A stretch of DNA of 48,459 bases from the IMG/VR virus record IMGVR_UViG_3300046171_000184, positions 1-48,459 of that record, one strand, 5' to 3'. Shown piece by piece: positions 2,651 to 45,115 of the stretch; within the stretch, counting starts at the first letter, position 1; every line of letters begins with the position of its first letter. The DNA comes from a virus. Position numbers and translations under genes: made by a program. The notes under the pieces were generated by a model. The model searched no databases and was not told the DNA's origin. It saw only the letters and a list, made by a program, of their open reading frames with translations.

Positions 2651-4582
2651 GGAGGGATATGCAATGAGGACAATACCGGAACCACCATTGCACCTTTCCA
2701 TTATTGGGATTCGCATTCCACCGCCTCCTCCACCGATCCAGGTAGCTTTTCCTAGTGCATTGCAATCCAGGATGCACTACTGGATCAGCTACCACCATAC
2801 CAGTCCACCTCCTCCAGACCACCATCCAGCACTAGGTGATCCTTGTACCTCCACCACCACCACCAGCAACCAAGTAAGATTCCGACCTAGGACCAGGAGT
2901 ACCTAAGCTGATGCATGGATTTCTAAATGTAGCTGGTACTTGTATTCCAACACCACCACCACCATGTATCCACTTGTACCAGTTCCGCCAGCACCTCCGG
3001 CACCACCACCACCGCCACCAGCCATATAACTATCAGTTCAGTGCCACCATCATTACCTCCACCAGCATATTGCCTATGATGTCCGGACCAGATCCACCTG
3101 GTCATTGAGCCCACCACCAGACACCACCACCATGATCCACCAGGATCACCGACCTCAGTCTGGTCCACAGTCCACCACCACCACCACCATCAGCAGTTAT
3201 GGTCCATGGACCATAGTAAGATGAGTACCAGTTCCATTGCCTACCAGCCTCATGTCCTATGGTGTATCCTAGCCACCACCAGCACCAACTAGAATAGTTA
3301 CTGGATGTAGTGATTGGTGCAATGGTATCCTGTATGATACAACCACCAGCACCACCACCACCGACCAGCGATCAAATCCACCAGCCACCACCACCACCAC
3401 AATACATATTCTACAGTTTCGATGAATTGATCTGCTGGTTGCAAAAGTACCAGAACTAGTAAAGGCATGAATGGTCTTACCACCATAGAAACTAATAGCA
3501 CCACCAGTTGCTTTTGCGGTTGCTGTAGTTCTGCTATTTTATAACGGACTACTACAATACCTGAACCACCTGACCACCATCTTGATGTCCATTGGATCCA
3601 TCTGCACCACCACCGCCACCACCAGTGCCTTGTTGCAGCACATGTCCTTCAGCAGATGCAGTGACCACCACCACCACCTCGCACCATTGCTGACCTACCA
3701 GTCCACCTGCACCAGTTGGAGTCCTCATCCACCACCACCGCACCACCTGCATAAGATCCTGGATGCTGGATCCATTGCATCATTTGCTAGCTATCGCATT
3801 ACCACCTATCCACCATATGTACCTGCATGGATCGCATTACCACCAGCACCACCAGCACCACCACCGCCACCACCTGCTGAATGACGTGCTGTGCCATTAC
3901 CACCATCATTATCCTTGTAAGTTGATCCATGAATTGGTGGTCATGATTTCCAGCACCTCCAGTGGATTGATTCACTGTTACCAGCCACCACCACCAGAAC
4001 CACCAGGATCTTCCAGACTGGATTACCGAGTTCTAGCCACCACCACCACCACCTTGATGTTTATGTGGATCCATGGATATCAAAGTGCTGATCACTTCCA
4101 TATTCCTATTAGTAGTTCATGATCCACCGCACCACCACGCACCAACAGTTACTGATAAGATTACTGCAACTGGAATGCTGATCTGTTGATGGAAGTGTAT
4201 CCTGGTACATTAGTTCTAACCACCAGCACCTCCACCACCACCTGTATAATTCCATCCACCAGCCACCACCACCAGCAACTACAAGATAATCAACAGTATC
4301 ACCAAAATCACCAAGAGCAGTTACATTCAAGTGCTCCTGATGAAGTAAAGATATGTGCTCTATAAACATCACTACCAGAAGTATAATCACTAATGACACC
4401 ACCAGTTGCTGTTAAACCTGATGGTGGTGTACTCCAGGAGCATTGTAAATATCTCCTTGTCTCTCAAAATATCCATGTGCAAATAAATCTAATAATCCAC
4501 CACCAACAGCACCACCTGCTGCTCCTGGATTAGAATCTCCGTTGTCTTGTGATAAACCTATGCGTCTGCCTAGATATCCCAT
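2648..4582 (-). pseudogene. Gly-rich adhesin-like gene, heavily frame-broken
   Basis: The gene starts at ATG 4582 behind an excellent Shine-Dalgarno (AAGGAGG) and opens MGYLGRRIGLSQDNGD, followed piecewise by PPSGLTATGGVISDY, YRAHIFT and DTVDYLVVAGGGG. It ends at 2648 with GIVLIAYPS and a TAA that is part of the late promoter. The middle is nearly all CCACCA-type DNA encoding GGGG-rich repeats, and the frame slips many times, so no long ORF survives. The same opening and ending are found in the better preserved gene at 14349-16252. The VVAGGGG start and VxxxAYPS end match a Gly-rich domain common in phage adhesins. Repeats of this kind are prone to assembly and sequencing error. About 640 aa is expected if repaired. 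Confidence 0.6.
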
Positions 4583-36234: not shown

Positions 36235-37521
36235 TTACCTCTCGCCATATGAGTCTCTTACCAAACCAAGACTGGTAAAAGTTGACTTTGGAGTAATCCT
36301 ATGACACACATGTGCTACCATATATATGCCTCCACTTTGATCATTGGTATTAGTTAGATCAGCACCGGACAACTCAGGAAAACTACATTCAACTAGATCA
36401 CCAGCTTTAATACTAAAATCACCAGCGATAGTTATTTGTGCCTTTACACTGAACAACTGATTATATCTCATTATACTCTGAACCGCAGTATCTTCAGCTT
36501 GGAAATTTGGTTCTCCAGGATTGGCTTTCTGATTATCGAGTTGTGCGTCTCCAGTTCCTTTTGGATTCACACCAATGTCCAGAATGTGAGTCATAAATCT
36601 AGATGGTGTTCTTGTGAATTCTTTTGCTACAAAACTATAGTCATCACCTTTTCTACCAGCAACCTCAACATCACTCGATTGTTGCTCAATACTATATGAA
36701 ACCTCTCTGTAATTCATAGCTAAGAAGTCAAAGAAAATTGATTTGTTATTATAAGTTCCCAGTGTGAGGTTCTGGTGTAGTTCAGTATCACTTTCGATAG
36801 TATAGTTTAGAATGTTGTTATCTTTACCTTTAACTTTATTACCAGTGTTATTGTAATTAAACTTCTTTACTGATGATCCTCTGAACAAATTATCAATAGA
36901 TTTAAAGTGAAACCCTTCTCTGGTTTGAAAGAATAAGAAACCAGCTGCACCACCTACACCCTGTGCAGGAACAGACTTTGATGCTAGCCAAGTACAAACA
37001 TAAAATGGTTTTCTATCATTACCAATAAAGTTATACTCCAGTGATGTTTCGTCTACATCAACCTCACCAGACACAGGAAGAACATCACCTAGAATAGAAC
37101 TGATGTGATCAGATATCTTACCTTCATATCTTTTAGTAACTCTGGTCTGTGTATTAGCAAAGTATTCTTGAGAGGCGAAGTCAAGAACATACAAGTCCTG
37201 TTGTGTTCCAGGGATAGCATCTCTCGCTCTGTTCACATACAAAGGAACCTCTAGTGTTCCACCCTGATTATCACTTATCTTAATCTGTGCTCTCTCACCA
37301 CCTCTGATGGGTAGACCATCCAAAGATCCTCTACCAGGACCATCGGCTTCATTGCCTGTTTCAACAATAGTTGCACTGGCAGATATTGTATTTGAAAGAA
37401 CACTCTCATAGTAATTATATTCTACCACACCAGCAGAAAGATCTACAGATCCACCTCCAGTATTGGAGTTGATCTGAAATGATTCAATATTACCTGCTTG
37501 TGATAGATCTTTTTCTGACAT
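36235..37521 (-). CDS. gp27-like baseplate hub protein
   Basis: This 428-aa protein starts MSEKDLSQAGNIESFQINSN, with GGGSVDLSAGVVEYNYYESV and LSNTISASATIVETGNEADG, then IRGGERAQIKISDNQGGTLE, VPLYVNRARDAIPGTQQDLY. The middle has VCTWLASKSVP and GFLFFQTREGFHFKSIDNLF, and the end has VKAQITIAGDFSIKAGDLVE, CSFPELSGAD and GGIYMVAHVCHRITPKSTF. The GEHIL-type start and the final beta-barrel (IAGDFSIKAGDLV) are typical of the hub family that includes T4 gp27 and VgrG/PhageGPD. The neighbouring OB-fold spike supports the call. The ATG overlaps the stop of the 1,029-aa gene (37521). Confidence 0.75.
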   Translation of the reverse strand: MSEKDLSQAGNIESFQINSNTGGGSVDLSAGVVEYNYYESVLSNTISASATIVETGNEADGPGRGSLDGLPIRGGERAQIKISDNQGGTLEVPLYVNRARDAIPGTQQDLYVLDFASQEYFANTQTRVTKRYEGKISDHISSILGDVLPVSGEVDVDETSLEYNFIGNDRKPFYVCTWLASKSVPAQGVGGAAGFLFFQTREGFHFKSIDNLFRGSSVKKFNYNNTGNKVKGKDNNILNYTIESDTELHQNLTLGTYNNKSIFFDFLAMNYREVSYSIEQQSSDVEVAGRKGDDYSFVAKEFTRTPSRFMTHILDIGVNPKGTGDAQLDNQKANPGEPNFQAEDTAVQSIMRYNQLFSVKAQITIAGDFSIKAGDLVECSFPELSGADLTNTNDQSGGIYMVAHVCHRITPKSTFTSLGLVRDSYGER

Positions 37522-40500
37522 TAACCTACTTTATACAAGGACCCTAAGAGTTGTGCTTCATAATAACTATTTAACAGGTTTCCAGAACCTGTTGATCCAG
37601 TAGAGGATTTGCCACCTCCACCACCTCCTGATGATTGTTGTGGGGGTGGTAATGGAACAATAGTTGGTGACCCTTCGCCAGGGTTTTCATATGAAGCTTG
37701 TTTCTCAACACTACCAATATTCTGAGTTGGTGCCTTCTGTGGTGTGATTGTAGGTGTTGATGGTTCTGGTGTTTGGCCAGGAGCTTCTGGTGTATCAGTT
37801 GGAGTGATCTTTGGTTCTTCCTTCTGTTGTGAGTTATACTCTTTCATATCCTCTTCATATTTGGCTGCACCAGATCTACCTGTGTATTCAGACCTTTCAG
37901 GTTTCTTCATCTCAGGAGGATCAACTGGTTTTACATCTTGACCAGTCATAGTTTCTGTAGGAGTAACTTCTGCTTTTACCGGAGTACCCTGTCTGGCCTC
38001 ATACTTCTTAAGATCTTTTTCATATTGAGCTGCACCAGATCTACCTGTGTATTCAGACCTTTCGGGCTTCTTCATCTCTTCAGATGGATCAACTGGTGAT
38101 ACTTTAGCAACAGTTGGTGGGGGATTAGGTGATCCTTTCTCTTCCTTCTGTTCTGGATCCGCTCCACCTTTCAGTGAGGCCATCTTGGCTTTAATCCTAG
38201 ATCTCATAGTATTACCACCATGGCTCAATACTCTAGAAACATTGATGTTAGGATCAGATGGTTTTAGTTTATCAAGATCCCATCTCTGTGGGCCACCTGG
38301 CAATCGTCCAGTGGATGTAGCTTCTCTTTCCCACTCACCATGAGTTCTTACATTCTTATCAACAGTTGATGCATCCCAACCCCAATCCAAAGCAATCTGT
38401 GCCGCCTCAGTAACCATAGCATCCATCTGTGCTGAGGTTGGTGGTGTAGGCCATGATGATGCTCTGTCTTGATTGTCTGGTCCGTGCATAGCAGCAACAC
38501 TCAAACCAATAGAACCAGTATTAGCACCTGCTGTGTGTGAGTTTTTATCCTGACCATAAGGTGTATATCTTACAGCCTTACCACTACCAAGGAAGGTAGT
38601 ATGATAGTAAGAGTAAGGTGTATTGTGACCTCCAGCTGTCCAGTGAAGGAACATCTTTCTATTCTTATCACCACCAGATGCATTGTATGGTGTGACTGAT
38701 TGACTAGAACTTGGAGCAACAGCTTTCAATCCAGCAGTATCAGATCCAGGTCTATCTCCCTGCATAGTGGGACTACCACTCTGATCTGTTGAACTACTTT
38801 CTGTTGAAGCAGGTGGACTATCAGGAGAAGTATTACTGATGGCTTCCTCTTCAGTATTACCTACGAAACCACCATCTCCACCAGTTCTAAAGTATCCAAC
38901 TCCCGGTTGAAGATAGTATTTACCTTCGGATATCTCTTTAGCCTGTTCTGACATAACACCAGTCTGTCCAGAGGCATTGGTTAGATCTCCTTGATTTACT
39001 TCCGTCTCCTCACCATCTGCCATTGGATCTCTACTGAAGAACGCCTTCATCATAATAGGGGCAATCTGTAGTGGATTGATCATCAATGCAGGGAAATTAA
39101 CAATTCCATAATCCACAAAAGGAATATTCAACTTTGGCAATCCCTCATACATTCTCTTAAAACCATCACCAGCCCAACCAAGAACCTTTTGTCCTGTTTG
39201 AAGAACAGCCGCAATATCTTCTTTTAACTTGTTACCAACCTCACTAACTCCACCACCTTTAAGTAAGATATAAAACAACTCACCAACATACTCACCAATC
39301 AACTCACCAAGGATGGTTCCAATGATAGGAATAGGAAGGAAGGTTCCTAAGAAACCACCCAACAGAGTACCACCAGCTTTGAACAAAGCTTTATCAAGTT
39401 TCTTATCTGGTTTACCATCACCATCAGCATCTTCAAAATAAGTAGTGACAGCAACAATCAGAGGACCAATGATAGGTATTCTAGACATACCTGACTTGGT
39501 TGCCAGTAATCCACCCTGTTTGGTAATAAAACTCGTGGCCTTATTCTTTCCAAAGGTTTTAATCAAACCTCTGTTCAGAGATCTATTAGCACCACCCTTA
39601 AAGAGTTGGCTTCCTTTTATCCCACCACCAAGGGATCCCATCATAGGGGCAGATGTTAGTCTGCCAGAACTTATTGCCTTGTTAACATTTGTTAGTGCCC
39701 TTCTAGAATCTAAACCATTATCAAGCAGGCCTTGGAACATTCTGGCAGCTTCATCACCATACTGTGCTCGTACCTGTAAGGTTTTCTTACTCAGAGTGTT
39801 GGTTATTCTTCCAGAACCACCAGGAAGTCTTCTAAATCCTTCACCAATACCAAGGTTACGACCAGCACCAGCACCACCTCTATTAGTAAGTCTATCTAAT
39901 GCTCCTGATGTTCTTCCTAGTTGTTGTGTTCTTGTATTGAATGTAGCAGCTCTACCTGCTGCCTTTGCTGCATTACCGATTGCCTTGGATATATCAGCAA
40001 TCTTCTCTACTCCCCTAGTAATAAAACCAGGAAGAACTTTACCTAGAGCTTTAAAGGTAGCCTTAATACCATTCCCAATCTTACCCCAGATATTTGGTTT
40101 GAAATTCTTTAACTTAGTAAGACCATCTTTAAAGAACTTGGATACCTTAGGTCCAAGTAGTTTGAATGTTTCATTCAGACCTTTAAATCCTAAGAATGTT
40201 AGGTGAAGATTTTTAGTTGCAAACTCAATACCAGACATGATTGGTCTGGCAAACTTGAGTAATGAGAGTGCAACAAACCCTAAGAATAACTGTGTAAAGA
40301 AGTTAAAGATACCTAACCCTTCACCAGCTTTTTTACCTTGGTTCAATAAGAAACCACCAACACCAGCCAGAATACCCTCTCTCTTATTCTCCTTCTCTCT
40401 CTTCTTTGCCTTCTCTCTATCCTTTCTTGCAGTAGCTGCCCTCTTCTTCTTGGACGCAATACCTTTTCCAGTAACAGATTCAATTGATCCAGTGAGAGAT

Positions 40501-40610
40501 ACAATACTATCCAACTGATTAGTGATGGATGTGAATGAAACCTTACCTACTGGTTTTACTGTTTGAACTTTTGGTTCTACAGGATCAGGAAGAGCCAACC
40601 CACCAAACAT
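37521..40610 (-). CDS. tape-measure/hub protein with embedded amidase domain
   Basis: In this 1,029-aa protein, residues about 52-80 are very basic and coiled (KKKRAATARKDREKAKKREK). Residues about 82-130 (GILAGVGGFLLN, FFTQLFLGFVALSLLKFARP) and 380-450 contain membrane-prone helices. DADGDGKPD at 395-403 resembles an EF-hand loop. A peptidoglycan amidase (PGRP/amidase_2) domain spans about 650-785: MFLHWTAGGHN, HTAGANTGSIGLSVAAMHG, VRTHGEWE and RWDLDKL, with His656, His757 and Asp778 as probable zinc ligands. A Pro-rich tail has a duplicated KKPERSEYTGRSGAA unit. The real start is 40860; a one-base change near 40748 separates the first 39 residues. Confidence 0.75.
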   Translation of the reverse strand: MFGGLALPDPVEPKVQTVKPVGKVSFTSITNQLDSIVSLTGSIESVTGKGIASKKKRAATARKDREKAKKREKENKREGILAGVGGFLLNQGKKAGEGLGIFNFFTQLFLGFVALSLLKFARPIMSGIEFATKNLHLTFLGFKGLNETFKLLGPKVSKFFKDGLTKLKNFKPNIWGKIGNGIKATFKALGKVLPGFITRGVEKIADISKAIGNAAKAAGRAATFNTRTQQLGRTSGALDRLTNRGGAGAGRNLGIGEGFRRLPGGSGRITNTLSKKTLQVRAQYGDEAARMFQGLLDNGLDSRRALTNVNKAISSGRLTSAPMMGSLGGGIKGSQLFKGGANRSLNRGLIKTFGKNKATSFITKQGGLLATKSGMSRIPIIGPLIVAVTTYFEDADGDGKPDKKLDKALFKAGGTLLGGFLGTFLPIPIIGTILGELIGEYVGELFYILLKGGGVSEVGNKLKEDIAAVLQTGQKVLGWAGDGFKRMYEGLPKLNIPFVDYGIVNFPALMINPLQIAPIMMKAFFSRDPMADGEETEVNQGDLTNASGQTGVMSEQAKEISEGKYYLQPGVGYFRTGGDGGFVGNTEEEAISNTSPDSPPASTESSSTDQSGSPTMQGDRPGSDTAGLKAVAPSSSQSVTPYNASGGDKNRKMFLHWTAGGHNTPYSYYHTTFLGSGKAVRYTPYGQDKNSHTAGANTGSIGLSVAAMHGPDNQDRASSWPTPPTSAQMDAMVTEAAQIALDWGWDASTVDKNVRTHGEWEREATSTGRLPGGPQRWDLDKLKPSDPNINVSRVLSHGGNTMRSRIKAKMASLKGGADPEQKEEKGSPNPPPTVAKVSPVDPSEEMKKPERSEYTGRSGAAQYEKDLKKYEARQGTPVKAEVTPTETMTGQDVKPVDPPEMKKPERSEYTGRSGAAKYEEDMKEYNSQQKEEPKITPTDTPEAPGQTPEPSTPTITPQKAPTQNIGSVEKQASYENPGEGSPTIVPLPPPQQSSGGGGGGKSSTGSTGSGNLLNSYYEAQLLGSLYKVG
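37864..38063. repeat. duplicated 35-bp exact repeat in the hub gene
   Basis: GCTGCACCAGATCTACCTGT and the following 15 bases occur identically at 37864-37898 and 38029-38063. On the minus strand both encode ERSEYTGRSGAA within a duplicated unit of about 50 residues in the Pro-rich C-terminus of the hub protein. Confidence 0.8.
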
Positions 40611-40740: not shown

Positions 40741-40860
40741 TTAGTCCTTACCTTTTATAAACTTCTTGGCACCATCCATCACTGCCTTCTTGGTCATCGT
40801 TCCGGCCAAGACTTTAGATGCAGCTGTAAGAGCTGCTATAGATCCTGATATTACAGCCAT
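40741..40860 (-). CDS. N-terminal 39 residues of the amidase-bearing hub protein
   Basis: The segment reads MAVISGSIAALTAASKVLAG, TMTKKAVMDGAKKFIKG, then a frame change. The following frame continues TKNAVKNRVTGKGRKKKKGK, IIPTSPMFGGLALPDP, in line with the 1,029-aa ORF, so the gene starts at 40860. The ATG shares bases with the stop of the 886-aa gene (TAATG), showing translational coupling. An extra G near 40748 explains the break. Confidence 0.65.
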   Translation of the reverse strand: MAVISGSIAALTAASKVLAGTMTKKAVMDGAKKFIKGKD

Positions 40861-43520
40861 TATACGATATTATAAATGGATTTGATGACCAACAACTCTG
40901 GATTATTCTGATCTGTTGATGAGAACATGGGTGCATCTGTTTGGTTTCCACCAGAACTAGAAGTTGGTTGTTTTTGTCCTGGTATAGGTAGAGGAACAAT
41001 ACCACCTGATCCAGTTCGAGACTTGGGTGGTTGTATGTTAGATCTTGATGATGGTTTTACTTTAGGTGACACTATCGGTAGTGAAGAACTGCCAGGTGTC
41101 ATACTTGGAACAGTCAGGTCTGAGGTACTTGGTCCTGATGATTGATTATTAACACCAGGTGTTCCTGCCATCTCAGCAATGGGTGAAAAGTCCAGTGCGG
41201 GCGCAGGTGTTGAAGAACTTGTACTTACTTGAGGTAGTCCAGAAGATCCAGGTGTCTGATTTGGAGTTCTCAAATCTTCTGTACTAACACCCTTACCACT
41301 CTTTACATCACCCATTGCTTTGAGTACTCTATTATATCCAATGGTAGATTTATTTCTACCATCACCATCATAGGCACCACCAGACTTACTCTTGAGTGCT
41401 GCCCACTCATAAGATATTCCTTTACCAAAAGCTTCATCTGACATCTTACCAGATAACCAATCATTTCCTCCTCTGGTCACTGCTAAACGATAGATTCCCA
41501 TCTTGTCCTGATTTGCAGGTGAGAATAAATCTGTCTCATAGTTTAGACCAACAGACTCTACTAGTTGTTTGAATACATTCACACCATTATATACTGGCAT
41601 AATTTGATACCTACCAGCTGCACCTGTTCCCTTGGTAGAACTCATAGCCATATCTCTGACCTGTTTCATAGTCATCTGAGTGATTGGTTTGCCCTCAGCT
41701 TTTGTATTTCTACCAGGATTCATAGCATCATATCCACCAGATGTATCTGATTCCCCCTCAGCGATTAGGTCAAGAATAGGACCCCATCTTCCTTTGTTAC
41801 TTCCTCCTCCACCACTAGATGATTTAGGTTTACCTGTTACAGTCTCTTGAGGATCTACTTGAGTTTTACCACCACCTTTGTATTCAAAGTGACCACCATG
41901 TGATCCACTATAATCATTAGCTCTCCACCCATACTTAGCACCATTTTTTCTAATCCAGGTGTTCATTGCACCATGAATATCAGCAGCTTCACCATGGTTG
42001 TGGAAACTATTTGAAGCTGGACTATATCCTTGACTTTTTAATCTATTGTACTCAGCTTTGTCTCTATAAACATTTGCGACATCAGCAGGATTGTATGGCA
42101 TTCCATCACTAACCATCTGTTTGAATGCAGATGCTGCAGGTGGTGCCAACATAACTGGCCTACCTTTGTAGTCTTGATATCCAGTGTCAACAACATTACT
42201 CGCTCCAACATAACCACCACCAGACATAGCAGGAATCAACCCTCCACCAGAGGCACTCTGAACCTTTGCCATCTTAGGTTTATTGGCATTAGGTCCAACA
42301 TTAAATGATAATGGATCAATACCAGTAGATTCTATCTGTCTTTCTCTTGCACCTACCTGCATAACTGATTCACCAGGTTGGAGTGCTACCAGTTGTGTAT
42401 CAGGACCAGCACCTGTAACCTTCTCTCCACTATCAGTTCTAACTTTACCACCACCTTCCATAAGTTGGTAATACTTATTGGTGACATTAGTAACTTCGCC
42501 ACCACCTGCCATGGCAGTTGCAGGAATAGGTACTTTTGATGCAGGATCTTTTGGTTTTTCAGTCTTCTCTGGAGGAGGTTCAATTCTTGGTATCTGTGGA
42601 GCTTCTATATTTGGAATGTCTGGAAGTTTGAGATCAGGAATACCAGGTATCTTACCTATAGTACTGTTTATGGCAAACTCAAATTCATTGATAGAACCAT
42701 TTAATAAGTTGATAAAGGTATTATAGGGGAAAAATATAATATCAAATATACTTTTTATAAACCCATTGAAGAAATCAATAATTGAATTACCAATGTCTCT
42801 GAATATCTTACCAGGATCTTTCAGGAACTCAAGCACCCCAAGTGCCAACATACCAAGAACAATATTATAAAGAAACTTAAAGATAGAACTAAAAAGACCA
42901 GATAGAGGTGATAAAACTTTCTTGCCTATATTTCCCAAACCATCTAAGAGACCTTTTCCTGACTCTTGTTTCTCTTCCTTATCTCTTTTCTTTGCCTTCT
43001 GACCAGCAACTCTACCCTTTTCTGAGGCTTTATCTTCTGCTTGTTGCTGACTACTTAGATTTGAAAGAATATTAAAAAGACTTGTTTCAATCTTTGAGAG
43101 ACTAGGAGCCACCACTGCAGTGAGAAACCCCATCATATCTTGTGGTTCACCAGTAACTTCAGTTTCTTCTTCAGGTTCTACATCACTACCCATCAATGTC
43201 TTGGTAGGATTAGATACTGGTCTTGATTTTTGTGCTGTTTTAACTACAGTATTAAACTTGATTTTATTATTCTTTACCTTAAATTTACCAGTCTCTTTCT
43301 TTACTCTTTTGAATTCTTCCGTAAGTCTTTCTGTATCTTCTGTAGGGATATCATTACCTGGCATTCTACCGGCAGCCATCCTCTCCTTCAGAAGAGTTTT
43401 ATATTCATCATAATCTAAGTCACTTACATCTTCCAATCCAAGAAGGCGAAGGATCTCCTCATCGATATTCTCATCGACTTGTTGATCATCTTTAATTCCT
43501 TCGTAGATTGTTAAAGCCAT
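40860..43520 (-). CDS. tape-measure-like hub protein with M15 peptidase and muramidase-like domains
   Basis: In this 886-aa protein, residues about 1-200 are charged and helical. Residues 205-275 are hydrophobic (SSIFKFLYNIVLGMLALGVL, SIFDIIFFPYNTFINLL), as in tape measures. Residues about 455-548 form a D-Ala-D-Ala carboxypeptidase/VanY-type M15 domain with SFHNHGEAADIHG and GGHFEY, that is His507, Asp514 and His544 as zinc ligands. Residues about 578-735 resemble a muramidase or transglycosylase (LIAEGESDTSGGYDAMNPG with Glu588/Glu590, and GTGAAGRYQIMP). A Pro/Ser-rich tail follows. It is the first long gene after the gp26 / small ORF pair, the position of a tape measure. Confidence 0.75.
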   Translation of the reverse strand: MALTIYEGIKDDQQVDENIDEEILRLLGLEDVSDLDYDEYKTLLKERMAAGRMPGNDIPTEDTERLTEEFKRVKKETGKFKVKNNKIKFNTVVKTAQKSRPVSNPTKTLMGSDVEPEEETEVTGEPQDMMGFLTAVVAPSLSKIETSLFNILSNLSSQQQAEDKASEKGRVAGQKAKKRDKEEKQESGKGLLDGLGNIGKKVLSPLSGLFSSIFKFLYNIVLGMLALGVLEFLKDPGKIFRDIGNSIIDFFNGFIKSIFDIIFFPYNTFINLLNGSINEFEFAINSTIGKIPGIPDLKLPDIPNIEAPQIPRIEPPPEKTEKPKDPASKVPIPATAMAGGGEVTNVTNKYYQLMEGGGKVRTDSGEKVTGAGPDTQLVALQPGESVMQVGARERQIESTGIDPLSFNVGPNANKPKMAKVQSASGGGLIPAMSGGGYVGASNVVDTGYQDYKGRPVMLAPPAASAFKQMVSDGMPYNPADVANVYRDKAEYNRLKSQGYSPASNSFHNHGEAADIHGAMNTWIRKNGAKYGWRANDYSGSHGGHFEYKGGGKTQVDPQETVTGKPKSSSGGGGSNKGRWGPILDLIAEGESDTSGGYDAMNPGRNTKAEGKPITQMTMKQVRDMAMSSTKGTGAAGRYQIMPVYNGVNVFKQLVESVGLNYETDLFSPANQDKMGIYRLAVTRGGNDWLSGKMSDEAFGKGISYEWAALKSKSGGAYDGDGRNKSTIGYNRVLKAMGDVKSGKGVSTEDLRTPNQTPGSSGLPQVSTSSSTPAPALDFSPIAEMAGTPGVNNQSSGPSTSDLTVPSMTPGSSSLPIVSPKVKPSSRSNIQPPKSRTGSGGIVPLPIPGQKQPTSSSGGNQTDAPMFSSTDQNNPELLVIKSIYNIV

Positions 43521-43693
43521 TAACTCCTCTGTTTAGCCTTTTCTTCTTCTTCCTCAAGGTGTTGTTGGAGAAGTGCGACATAAACATCACGCTCCCAAGG
43601 CATCATATTTTCAATCTCTGTCAATGAGTATTTATGGTACTGCATCAAAGCGAAGTTGAGTTTAAAATAAGCCTCAAGATCCATGTGGATCAT
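43520..43693 (-). CDS. gpT-like small tail-assembly ORF, likely -1 frameshift extension of gp26
   Basis: This 57-aa ORF starts MIHMDLEAYFKLNFALMQYH and contains KYSLTEIENMMPWERDVYVA, LLQQHLEEEEEK. The helical ENMMPWERDVYVALL segment looks like the C-terminal half of tape-measure chaperones. Neither possible start (43693 or 43684) has a Shine-Dalgarno: the upstream bases are TTTTTTCGCGTAGCC. The ORF lies in the -1 frame relative to gp26, begins within 3 bases of the gp26 stop, and a T TTT TTC slippery heptamer sits two codons before that stop. Its own stop overlaps the start of the 886-aa hub gene (TAATG). It may be made as a gp26 fusion, as a separate protein, or both. Confidence 0.7.
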   Translation of the reverse strand: MIHMDLEAYFKLNFALMQYHKYSLTEIENMMPWERDVYVALLQQHLEEEEEKAKQRS

Positions 43694-43708
43694 GGCTACG
43701 CGAAAAAA
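43681..43708 (-). other. candidate -1 programmed frameshift signal (slippery heptamer plus hairpin)
   Basis: On the minus strand the heptamer T-TTT-TTC (43702-43708) is in the zero frame (AGT TTT TTC GCG TAG). Six bases further (43696-43701, including the stop) comes CCATG-ATCCA-CATGG (43681-43695), a 5-bp stem with a 5-base loop. Slippage by -1 would read CGC GTA GCC ATG into the 57-aa ORF. This is the layout used by long-tailed phages for gpG/gpGT, here next to gp26. Confidence 0.6.
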
Positions 43709-44202
43709 CTTGAGAGACCTTCTAATACGATAGTACTCTTCTCTTTAGTTTTAGGATTGACTACCTCAACTGTATGTGAAAGTTTAGGCATTGTCTCAAA
43801 GAATTTCTCAATTTGTTTAAATTGAATTGAGTTCATACCCTCAAGGAATTCGACAACTTCTTTCTTAGTACAGTCAGAAGTAGACCATACTTCATCTTCA
43901 TTGTAGATCTTATCAATACAACTTGCCACCAGTTCAAATGATTTCTCAATATTCAACTCATCAGTATCAGAGAAGTTGTTCTTAATGAACTGATCCAATG
44001 AAGGATACCTCATCTCCATCATCAACTCATCATCAAGTTTGATCTGTTTGTTGTGATCTTCACTCTCTACAACTTTAATCTCATCAAGAGAAATAGTTAC
44101 AGGGATCTGTGTCTCACCATCATCAGGGGCAGTGATGTTGACTTCTACTTCTTCACCAACAGACTTTGCCACGAATGTTGAGGAACAGATACTCAATATC
44201 AA
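43696..44202 (-). CDS. gp26: gp26-like baseplate hub/tail-assembly protein, C-terminal part
   Basis: The authentic part starts about KSVGEEVEVNITAPDDGETQ and runs IPVTISLDEIKVVESEDHNK, DELMMEMRYPSLDQFIKNNF, FELVASCIDKIYNEDEVWST, SDCTKKEVVEFLEGMNSIQF and KQIEKFFETMPKLSHTVEVV, ending TIVLEGLSSFFA. This is the gp26 pattern of T4-like marine phages (a small, acidic, mostly helical protein placed beside the tape-measure genes). The upstream segment reads in other frames because of two single-base changes (about 44165 and 44266). TAG at 43696 ends the protein; a slippery heptamer lies just before it. Confidence 0.75.
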   Translation of the reverse strand: MILSICSSTFVAKSVGEEVEVNITAPDDGETQIPVTISLDEIKVVESEDHNKQIKLDDELMMEMRYPSLDQFIKNNFSDTDELNIEKSFELVASCIDKIYNEDEVWSTSDCTKKEVVEFLEGMNSIQFKQIEKFFETMPKLSHTVEVVNPKTKEKSTIVLEGLSSFFA

Positions 44203-44417
44203 ATGTAGGTAGTTGATCTACTTTTACACCTCTTGTTGTTACACAATTTTTAATTACAGCCTTAACTGCAGGTTGTGATCTGTTTACTATCTTCACTTTC
44301 TAAAGCAAGAACAAGAAGTTTCTCTTCCTTCACAAGGAAAGGACGATAGCTAATAGTCTTCTTTGTAGAAGGTAACACCAACTCATAGGTAGGTGTTGCA
44401 ATTTTTGGTAAAGGCAT
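44203..44417 (-). pseudogene. gp26: gp26 N-terminal part (two frame changes)
   Basis: The segment starts at ATG 44417 (MPLPKIATPTYELVLPSTKK, TISYRPFLVKEEKLLVLALE, SEDSKQITT), then after one extra C reads AVKAVIKNCVTTRGVKVDQL and PTFDIEYLFLNIRGK, and after another frame change joins KSVGEEVEV. All three frames give one continuous, sensible gp26. A GATAAATA late promoter lies 24 bases upstream. Breaks in an essential gene argue for sequence error. Confidence 0.65.
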
Positions 44418-44452: not shown

Positions 44453-45115
44453 TTAAACTTGAGCGACAATTTGAGATTTATCAATTGTATATCTCTGCAT
44501 ACTCATTGATACTGAAAACTTGAGAATCTGACTTCCCTCATATGAAACAGGAGTACTAATGATATTAATTGGAAAGGAATTGACTAATGTATATGTTAGT
44601 TGATATGATGTGGGATCAGATTCAAATACTCGTTGAACTGTCGATACATCTTTTTCGAACTTGACAATATACATATTAGTTTTGTAGCTAGCAGGATAAT
44701 TCATCCTGTAGTTTGCTCCAAACTTCCTTGCATTAACATTACTTAGTCTCTGACCATTCCCTTGCCCAGAAATATAATCAATCCAACCATTGAAGAAATC
44801 TACAACTTTGTAGTCATGATCAACATAGAATGTTAGATCAACTGTATCATCATACTGACGGCGATAGGCCATCCTCTCACGAACACCTTGATAATCACCG
44901 ATCACTTCATGTGTTGATAAACTAGTTCCAGGTAAAACAGCACTATTACATAACAGTTCTATATCCTCACCATCATTATCATAATTAAATCCATTCAAGT
45001 TAAGATGAGTCTTAACAGCATCAGGAGGTGCTAACTTGATCTGATATACGGATGTCTGAGCAAGATTAAGTATCTTACTCTCCAATGTTGATGTTCTGAT
45101 GGGTCCGATAGCCAT
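44453..45115 (-). CDS. gp54: tail-tube-family protein, probably gp54 baseplate-tube initiator
   Basis: This 220-aa protein starts MAIGPIRTSTLESKILNLAQ, with YQIKLAPPDAVKTHLNLNGF, CNSAVLPGTSLSTHEVIGDY, QGVRERMAYRRQYDDTVDLT, FYVDHDYKVVDFFNGWIDYI, MYIVKFEKDVSTVQRVFESD, YQLTYTLVNSFPINI, then GSQILKFSVSMSMQRYTI. The NSAVLPGTSLS...VREMAYRRQYDDTVDLTFYVD and YTLVNSFPINI phrases belong to the gp19/gp54 tail-tube fold of T4-like phages. It is longer than the gp19 major tube protein and sits beside gp48, which favours gp54. gp19 itself remains possible. It is transcribed away from gp4. Confidence 0.7.
   Translation of the reverse strand: MAIGPIRTSTLESKILNLAQTSVYQIKLAPPDAVKTHLNLNGFNYDNDGEDIELLCNSAVLPGTSLSTHEVIGDYQGVRERMAYRRQYDDTVDLTFYVDHDYKVVDFFNGWIDYISGQGNGQRLSNVNARKFGANYRMNYPASYKTNMYIVKFEKDVSTVQRVFESDPTSYQLTYTLVNSFPINIISTPVSYEGSQILKFSVSMSMQRYTIDKSQIVAQV

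Follow-up and report, generated by a model that had tools for sequence, protein, structure and literature searches.

The window analysed here, the whole 48,459-nucleotide stretch of IMG/VR record IMGVR_UViG_3300046171_000184, is a 48.5-kb AT-rich virus record with T4-like structural genes; of its annotated relatives, the closest are marine cyanophages, for example S-SCSM1 and P-TIM68. A short region of its minus strand holds a gp26 homolog and a small open reading frame (ORF), both candidate parts of a tail assembly chaperone (TAC), together with the features listed below in the order in which they would be transcribed.

44453..45115, minus strand: tail tube protein gene, upstream of gp26 (PF23849, phrog_45).
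43699..44417, minus strand: gp26 homolog, the putative TAC-N (PF12322, phrog_150), split over three frames and full length in content.
43718..43722, minus strand: Shine-Dalgarno (SD)-like GAAGG, 9 nt upstream of the heptamer, supported by its fixed spacing and anti-SD pairing; GGAGGG or GAGGG in many relatives.
43702..43708, minus strand: candidate slippery heptamer T_TTT_TTC in gp26 codons AGT TTT TTC, in register; T_TTT_TTN in 329/329 relatives.
43520..43702, minus strand: gp51 domain, the putative TAC-C (phrog_634, E 1e-27), as it would be read in the -1 frame after a slip; every relative has this frame open from the heptamer on.
43696..43698, minus strand: gp26 stop codon TAG.
43520-43693, minus strand: gp51 ORF with its own ATG, 57 aa.
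43678..43691, minus strand: GATCC-ACAT-GGATC, a putative stimulatory hairpin located 10 nt past the heptamer, proposed from covariation and from stability relative to synonymous shuffles.
40860..43520, minus strand: tape-measure-like ORF of 886 aa with an endolysin-like domain (weak phrog_1068/5062 tape measure matches; phrog_90 endolysin).

The gene order in both the window and S-SCSM1 is tail tube, gp26, gp51 and large tape-measure-region ORFs, and the annotation of S-SCSM1 names tube and tape measure in the matching region; in the window, gp26 and gp51 are located between the tail tube gene and the tape-measure-like ORFs. The 886-aa ORF has its own SD (GGAG), and its ATG overlaps the gp51 stop as TAATG, in agreement with the earlier note on this DNA, which had described the small ORF as ending on the start codon of a tape-measure-like gene. 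Weak sequence matches and position hint that this ORF may be the tape measure gene, and this tentative assignment gains support from how S-SCSM1 and HTVC008M are annotated in that region. Two large tape-measure-like ORFs are consecutive in the window, at 37521-40610, with a weak amidase-like match, and at 40860-43520, which carries the endolysin-like domain (phrog_90).

The gp26 homolog is distributed over segments in three frames (44417-44271, 44269-44165 and 44169-43699), an arrangement missed by the earlier note. The segments are 67-90% identical to intact relatives and are separated by two shifts of opposite sign, one near 44270 and the other near 44167, with some 100 nt between them. Because the middle piece still encodes conserved sequence, these breaks are probably assembly or sequencing errors in the record. 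The run of six T at the end of gp26 is not among them.

At the junction between the two genes the minus strand reads ...GAAGG TCTCTCAAG TTTTTTC GCG TAG CC ATG ATC CAC ATG GAT..., where the zero frame AGT TTT TTC GCG TAG puts T_TTT_TTC (43708..43702) in the X_XXY_YYZ register, with a single sense codon, GCG, between the heptamer and the gp26 stop (43698-43696). The gp51 ORF is in the -1 frame relative to gp26, its ATG lies 2 nt past the TAG and an SD is absent nearby. The heptamer, the frame relation and the SD-less start just past the stop had all been read in this way before, and the fusion junction predicted at that time, SFFRVAMIHMDL, is correct. Heptamers of this kind are not above chance in the window (7 found, 9.75 expected), and their frequency was rejected as evidence; since the heptamer alone is not unusual there, the case for a frameshift rests on conservation.

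The 57-aa ORF, which had been left unnamed when it was proposed to form a chaperone pair with gp26, corresponds to the C-terminal domain of T4 gp51 (phrog_634, E 1e-27) and is the cyanophage form of that protein; the proposed pair is supported and its second member can now be called gp51. T4 gp51 matches phrog_150 over 13-280 and T4 gp26 over 14-235 only, the pieces found in the window match the two parts of T4 gp51, and both parts belong by profile to the T4 gp26/gp51 family (PF12322, phrog_150, phrog_634). A C-domain profile built without T4 matched T4 gp51 residues 209-244 with an E value of 5e-5. Comparison of the gp26 profile with T4 gp51 by hhalign gave a weak, local match only, so that the link between T4 gp26 and gp51 rests on phrog_150. 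Judged from these profiles, T4 gp51 is one ORF that joins a gp26-family domain to the C-domain, and a frameshift product of gp26 and gp51 would therefore share the architecture of a known natural protein.

Searching with gp51 supplied junctions from IMG/VR, to which nine named phages were added; one gp51 match (L259) was spurious and was excluded, and the 329 usable junctions, of which 271 are unique, have a median gp26 identity of 42%. The -1 relation and T_TTT_TTN in the gp26 register were present in 329 of 329 junctions, counts that are not independent trials, with C as the last base in 208, T in 106 and A in 15; conservation of the heptamer and of the frame relation was the check that the earlier note had named. 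The heptamer was kept in all 19 gp26 clusters sharing <40% identity (36 clusters at <50%), and at protein identities below 40-50% silent sites should be saturated. In every unique junction (271/271) the first codon was TTT, followed by TT[C/T/A], and the codon preceding TTT ended in T, for which 61% would be expected; the silent positions of the codons flanking the junction vary freely.

A requirement that gp26 end in Phe-Phe could be thought to preserve T_TTT_TTC by itself, Phe237 being invariant and Phe238 nearly so. We regard this explanation as having a negligible chance of being correct, given that the codons are frozen too: TTT comes first in 271 of 271 unique junctions compared with 40% at other Phe-Phe sites of the same phages, where TTC is first in 303/509 and TTT-TTC occurs in 59/509, and replacement of the second Phe by Leu is always through TTA, by which the slip is kept. 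No junction with TTC-TTT or TTC-TTC and an unchanged gp51 frame was found among the relatives collected. On these counts, conservation of the heptamer and of the frame relation extends beyond protein and codon constraint.

The earlier note had also warned that an indel error could sit in the T run and make the -1 relation an artefact. Two frame breaks do occur further upstream in gp26, but the same run and frame relation are shared by all relatives collected, including the GenBank isolates P-SSM2, P-TIM68 and P-HM1 as well as the record L258, which refutes the artefact and reduces its probability to almost nothing. The run itself is extended to eight T in HTVC008M-type phages. More distant are the Vibrio phages 1.255.O, Kuja and K483 (L083, L087 and L091), in which the -1 relation is kept but the T6 heptamer is not, [A/C]_CTT_TT[T/C] providing a different possible slip site (CTT-TTT or CTT-TTC). 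The T6 heptamer is thus not universal beyond the set found via gp51 similarity. The slip site of these Vibrio phages bears some resemblance to GTTTTT, a motif that PMC12846349 reports for Vandenendeviridae.

The ATG located two bases after the TAG, present in the window and in many relatives (at codon index 3 of the gp51 frame in 85 of 271 unique junctions), raises the alternative that termination and reinitiation at this codon, with no frameshift, produce gp51 as a small protein of its own. We consider this unlikely. In about half of the relatives, none of the first eight gp51-frame codons is a start (ATG, GTG and TTG are all absent in 133 of 271 unique junctions), no gp51 start precedes codon 14 in about a fifth of the unique junctions, and in ACG-2014j and Melnitz a start codon is absent at the gp51 N-terminus. 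Moreover, reinitiation would have to proceed with the SD before gp51 absent, and it leaves the invariant heptamer and the hairpin unexplained. In the GenBank record of ACG-2014j (L095), gp51 (2971-3150) is unannotated, apparently for want of an N-terminal start codon, and several further records give gp51 starts that seem arbitrary.

In most relatives exactly 9 nt separate the heptamer from the end of an upstream purine-rich motif (GGAGGG, GAGGG or GAAGG), whose predicted SD-like pairing to the 16S 3' end amounts to -6.54 kcal/mol compared with -5.28 kcal/mol (sd 0.10) expected from synonymous resampling; the same resampling detected no comparable pairing excess in other upstream blocks. A conserved Leu-Glu-Gly accounts for part of the motif, and the version present in the window, GAAGG, is a weaker one. 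SD stimulators of frameshifting are discussed in PMC4066793. On the other side of the heptamer, the first 40 nt fold with -8.9 kcal/mol compared with -4.2 kcal/mol for synonymous shuffles of the gp51 codons (mean z -2.3), and the next stretch downstream, which served as control, had no folding signal relative to synonymous shuffles. The downstream fold of the window itself reached -11.3 kcal/mol (p 0.01).

The hairpin CCATG-ATCCA-CATGG, put forward in the earlier note, was rejected, having a single double-change cell, a value reached by 402 of 500 shuffles. Covariation points to GATCC-ACAT-GGATC (43691-43678) in its place: in the window group, 4 of 5 pairs covary, with 31 double-change cells compared with 14.7 in shuffles (0/500), and shifting the partner position lowers every covariation measure. 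This hairpin is short and its pairing is broken in 17% of cells. An SD-like element upstream and structure downstream are both found, though RNAalifold predicted no consensus structure for the window group, and the hairpin is therefore best described as a putative stimulator, well supported by the sequence comparisons but not unanimously so. Inspection by eye of other marine groups (L093, L095, L243 and similar) revealed different potential hairpins at the same place, such as CCCTC...GAGGG and GGCTCTC-TCAC-GAGAGCC, which suggests turnover of the stimulator hairpin among marine groups.

Conservation of these ribosomal stimulators also bears on whether the fusion could arise through slippage of RNA polymerase, instead of the ribosome, on the T6-T8 run. 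A run of six T, or of eight as in HTVC008M-type phages, can be slippery, which may be why UUUUUUU is underrepresented in each of the three frames of E. coli genes (PMC4066793). However, the T6 of the window group is short, the ribosomal stimulators are conserved, and the run always has the same register (a codon third base, then TTT TT), which polymerase slippage would not need; we therefore see transcriptional slippage as very improbable.

An AlphaFold2 model of gp26 from an intact relative had a pLDDT of 87, and its N-terminal residues 1-96 matched 2ob9, the tail assembly chaperone of HK97 (Z 7.7), as well as the small proteins 3fgx (Z 7.9), YqbN 3klu (Z 7.2) and 5ir0 (Z 5.5), the latter three being probably of similar kind and from phages or phage elements; the next structural match had a Z of 3.7. 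Foldseek of the model against the PDB gave no match at E<=0.001, the HK97 TAC appearing at E 1.2, and a PDB sequence search with the gp26 profile gave nothing relevant. Among Pfam TAC families, sequence comparison returned only Phage_TAC_3, for 3 of 73 members and with a best E value of 0.018, which is not significant. With Z scores under 8, the model is moderate evidence that gp26 has a TAC-N fold. T4 gp51 is needed for assembly and absent from the particle (PMC3004832).

We thus hold it highly probable that gp26 (TAC-N) and gp51 (TAC-C) form a single tail-assembly-chaperone gene from which -1 programmed frameshifting yields a second product. The gpG/gpGT-like pairing suggested in the earlier note is supported by the sequence signal and its conservation, the -1 relation, the codon and structure constraints, the undependable gp51 starts, the TAC-like predicted fold and the gene order; slippage itself, its rate and what the products may bind are inferred. 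The majority of ribosomes would terminate at the gp26 stop and release TAC-N. A minority, paused by the SD-like element 9 nt upstream and the hairpin about 10 nt downstream, would slip back one base on U_UUU_UUC and continue in the gp51 frame, yielding a gp26-gp51 fusion (TAC-NC), which with an intact gp26 would have about 298 aa. If the analogy with lambda gpG/gpGT holds, TAC-N and TAC-NC would coat the product of the adjacent tape measure gene, the gp51 domain would recruit the tail tube protein, and both chaperone forms would leave the finished virion. A broader proposal, on which our judgement is evenly balanced, is that the TAC frameshift of marine T4-like phages has a bipartite dnaX-like stimulator (GGAGGG plus the covarying hairpin) that is old in Kyanoviridae and sets the TAC-N:TAC-NC ratio, the T4 group using two separate genes (26 and an N+C 51) instead.

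Most likely, the gp51 of these ocean phages forms the C-terminal end of a chaperone extended by frameshifting, a reading that explains why cyanophage gp51 reaches only some 20% of T4 gp51 in length (PMC3037559). The same reading indicates that an abundant ocean phage group is routinely mis-annotated, gp51 being either entered as a separate baseplate hub assembly catalyst or overlooked, and the heptamer junction offers a clear signal for annotation correction and for measurement of the frameshift rate.

The layout had been presented in the earlier note as not established for T4-like phages, but it was already reported: both PMC10885494 and PMC12846349 credit TAC genes of T4-like phages to Vladimirov, Gautam & Davidson (Virology 566:9-15, 2022), and poly-T frameshift signals in the TAC-N genes of these phages are credited to the same work (PMC12846349). 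As far as these citing passages describe it, the T4-like gp26/gp51 system comprises the same genes, TAC-N plus TAC-C and a poly-T signal, with no essential difference from the window; a frameshifted gp26/gp51 was thus already predicted for this phage group in 2022, and the window, which agrees, adds a further genome to it. The SD-like element and the hairpin, quantified here, may be new. The abstract of the 2022 study reportedly states that frameshifting appears conserved in several T4-like groups, the T4 group using separate genes 26 and 51. T4 (Tevenvirinae) resembles the window in having a TAC-N-like gp26 and a gp51 whose C-terminus matches the window ORF, but T4 and Merlin carry genes 26 and 51 on opposite strands, and their gene 51 is a single ORF for the complete N+C protein, which makes a frameshift unnecessary there.

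The lambda gpG/gpGT scheme is reviewed in PMC5009743, T4 being still named as an exception in 2016. Common to lambda and to the arrangement proposed here are a short chaperone and its -1-extended form, the tube and tape measure as partners, and a frameshift near the end of the first ORF. The slippery sequence of lambda is of the G/A type, whereas the slip site of the window is U_UUU_UUC with an SD-like motif upstream and a hairpin downstream, and no sequence similarity is claimed. The -1 signal of E. coli dnaX combines a heptamer with a hairpin downstream and, about 10 nt upstream, an SD-like element. Its heptamer is different from that of the window and the gene is unrelated, the likeness between the two being one of design only.
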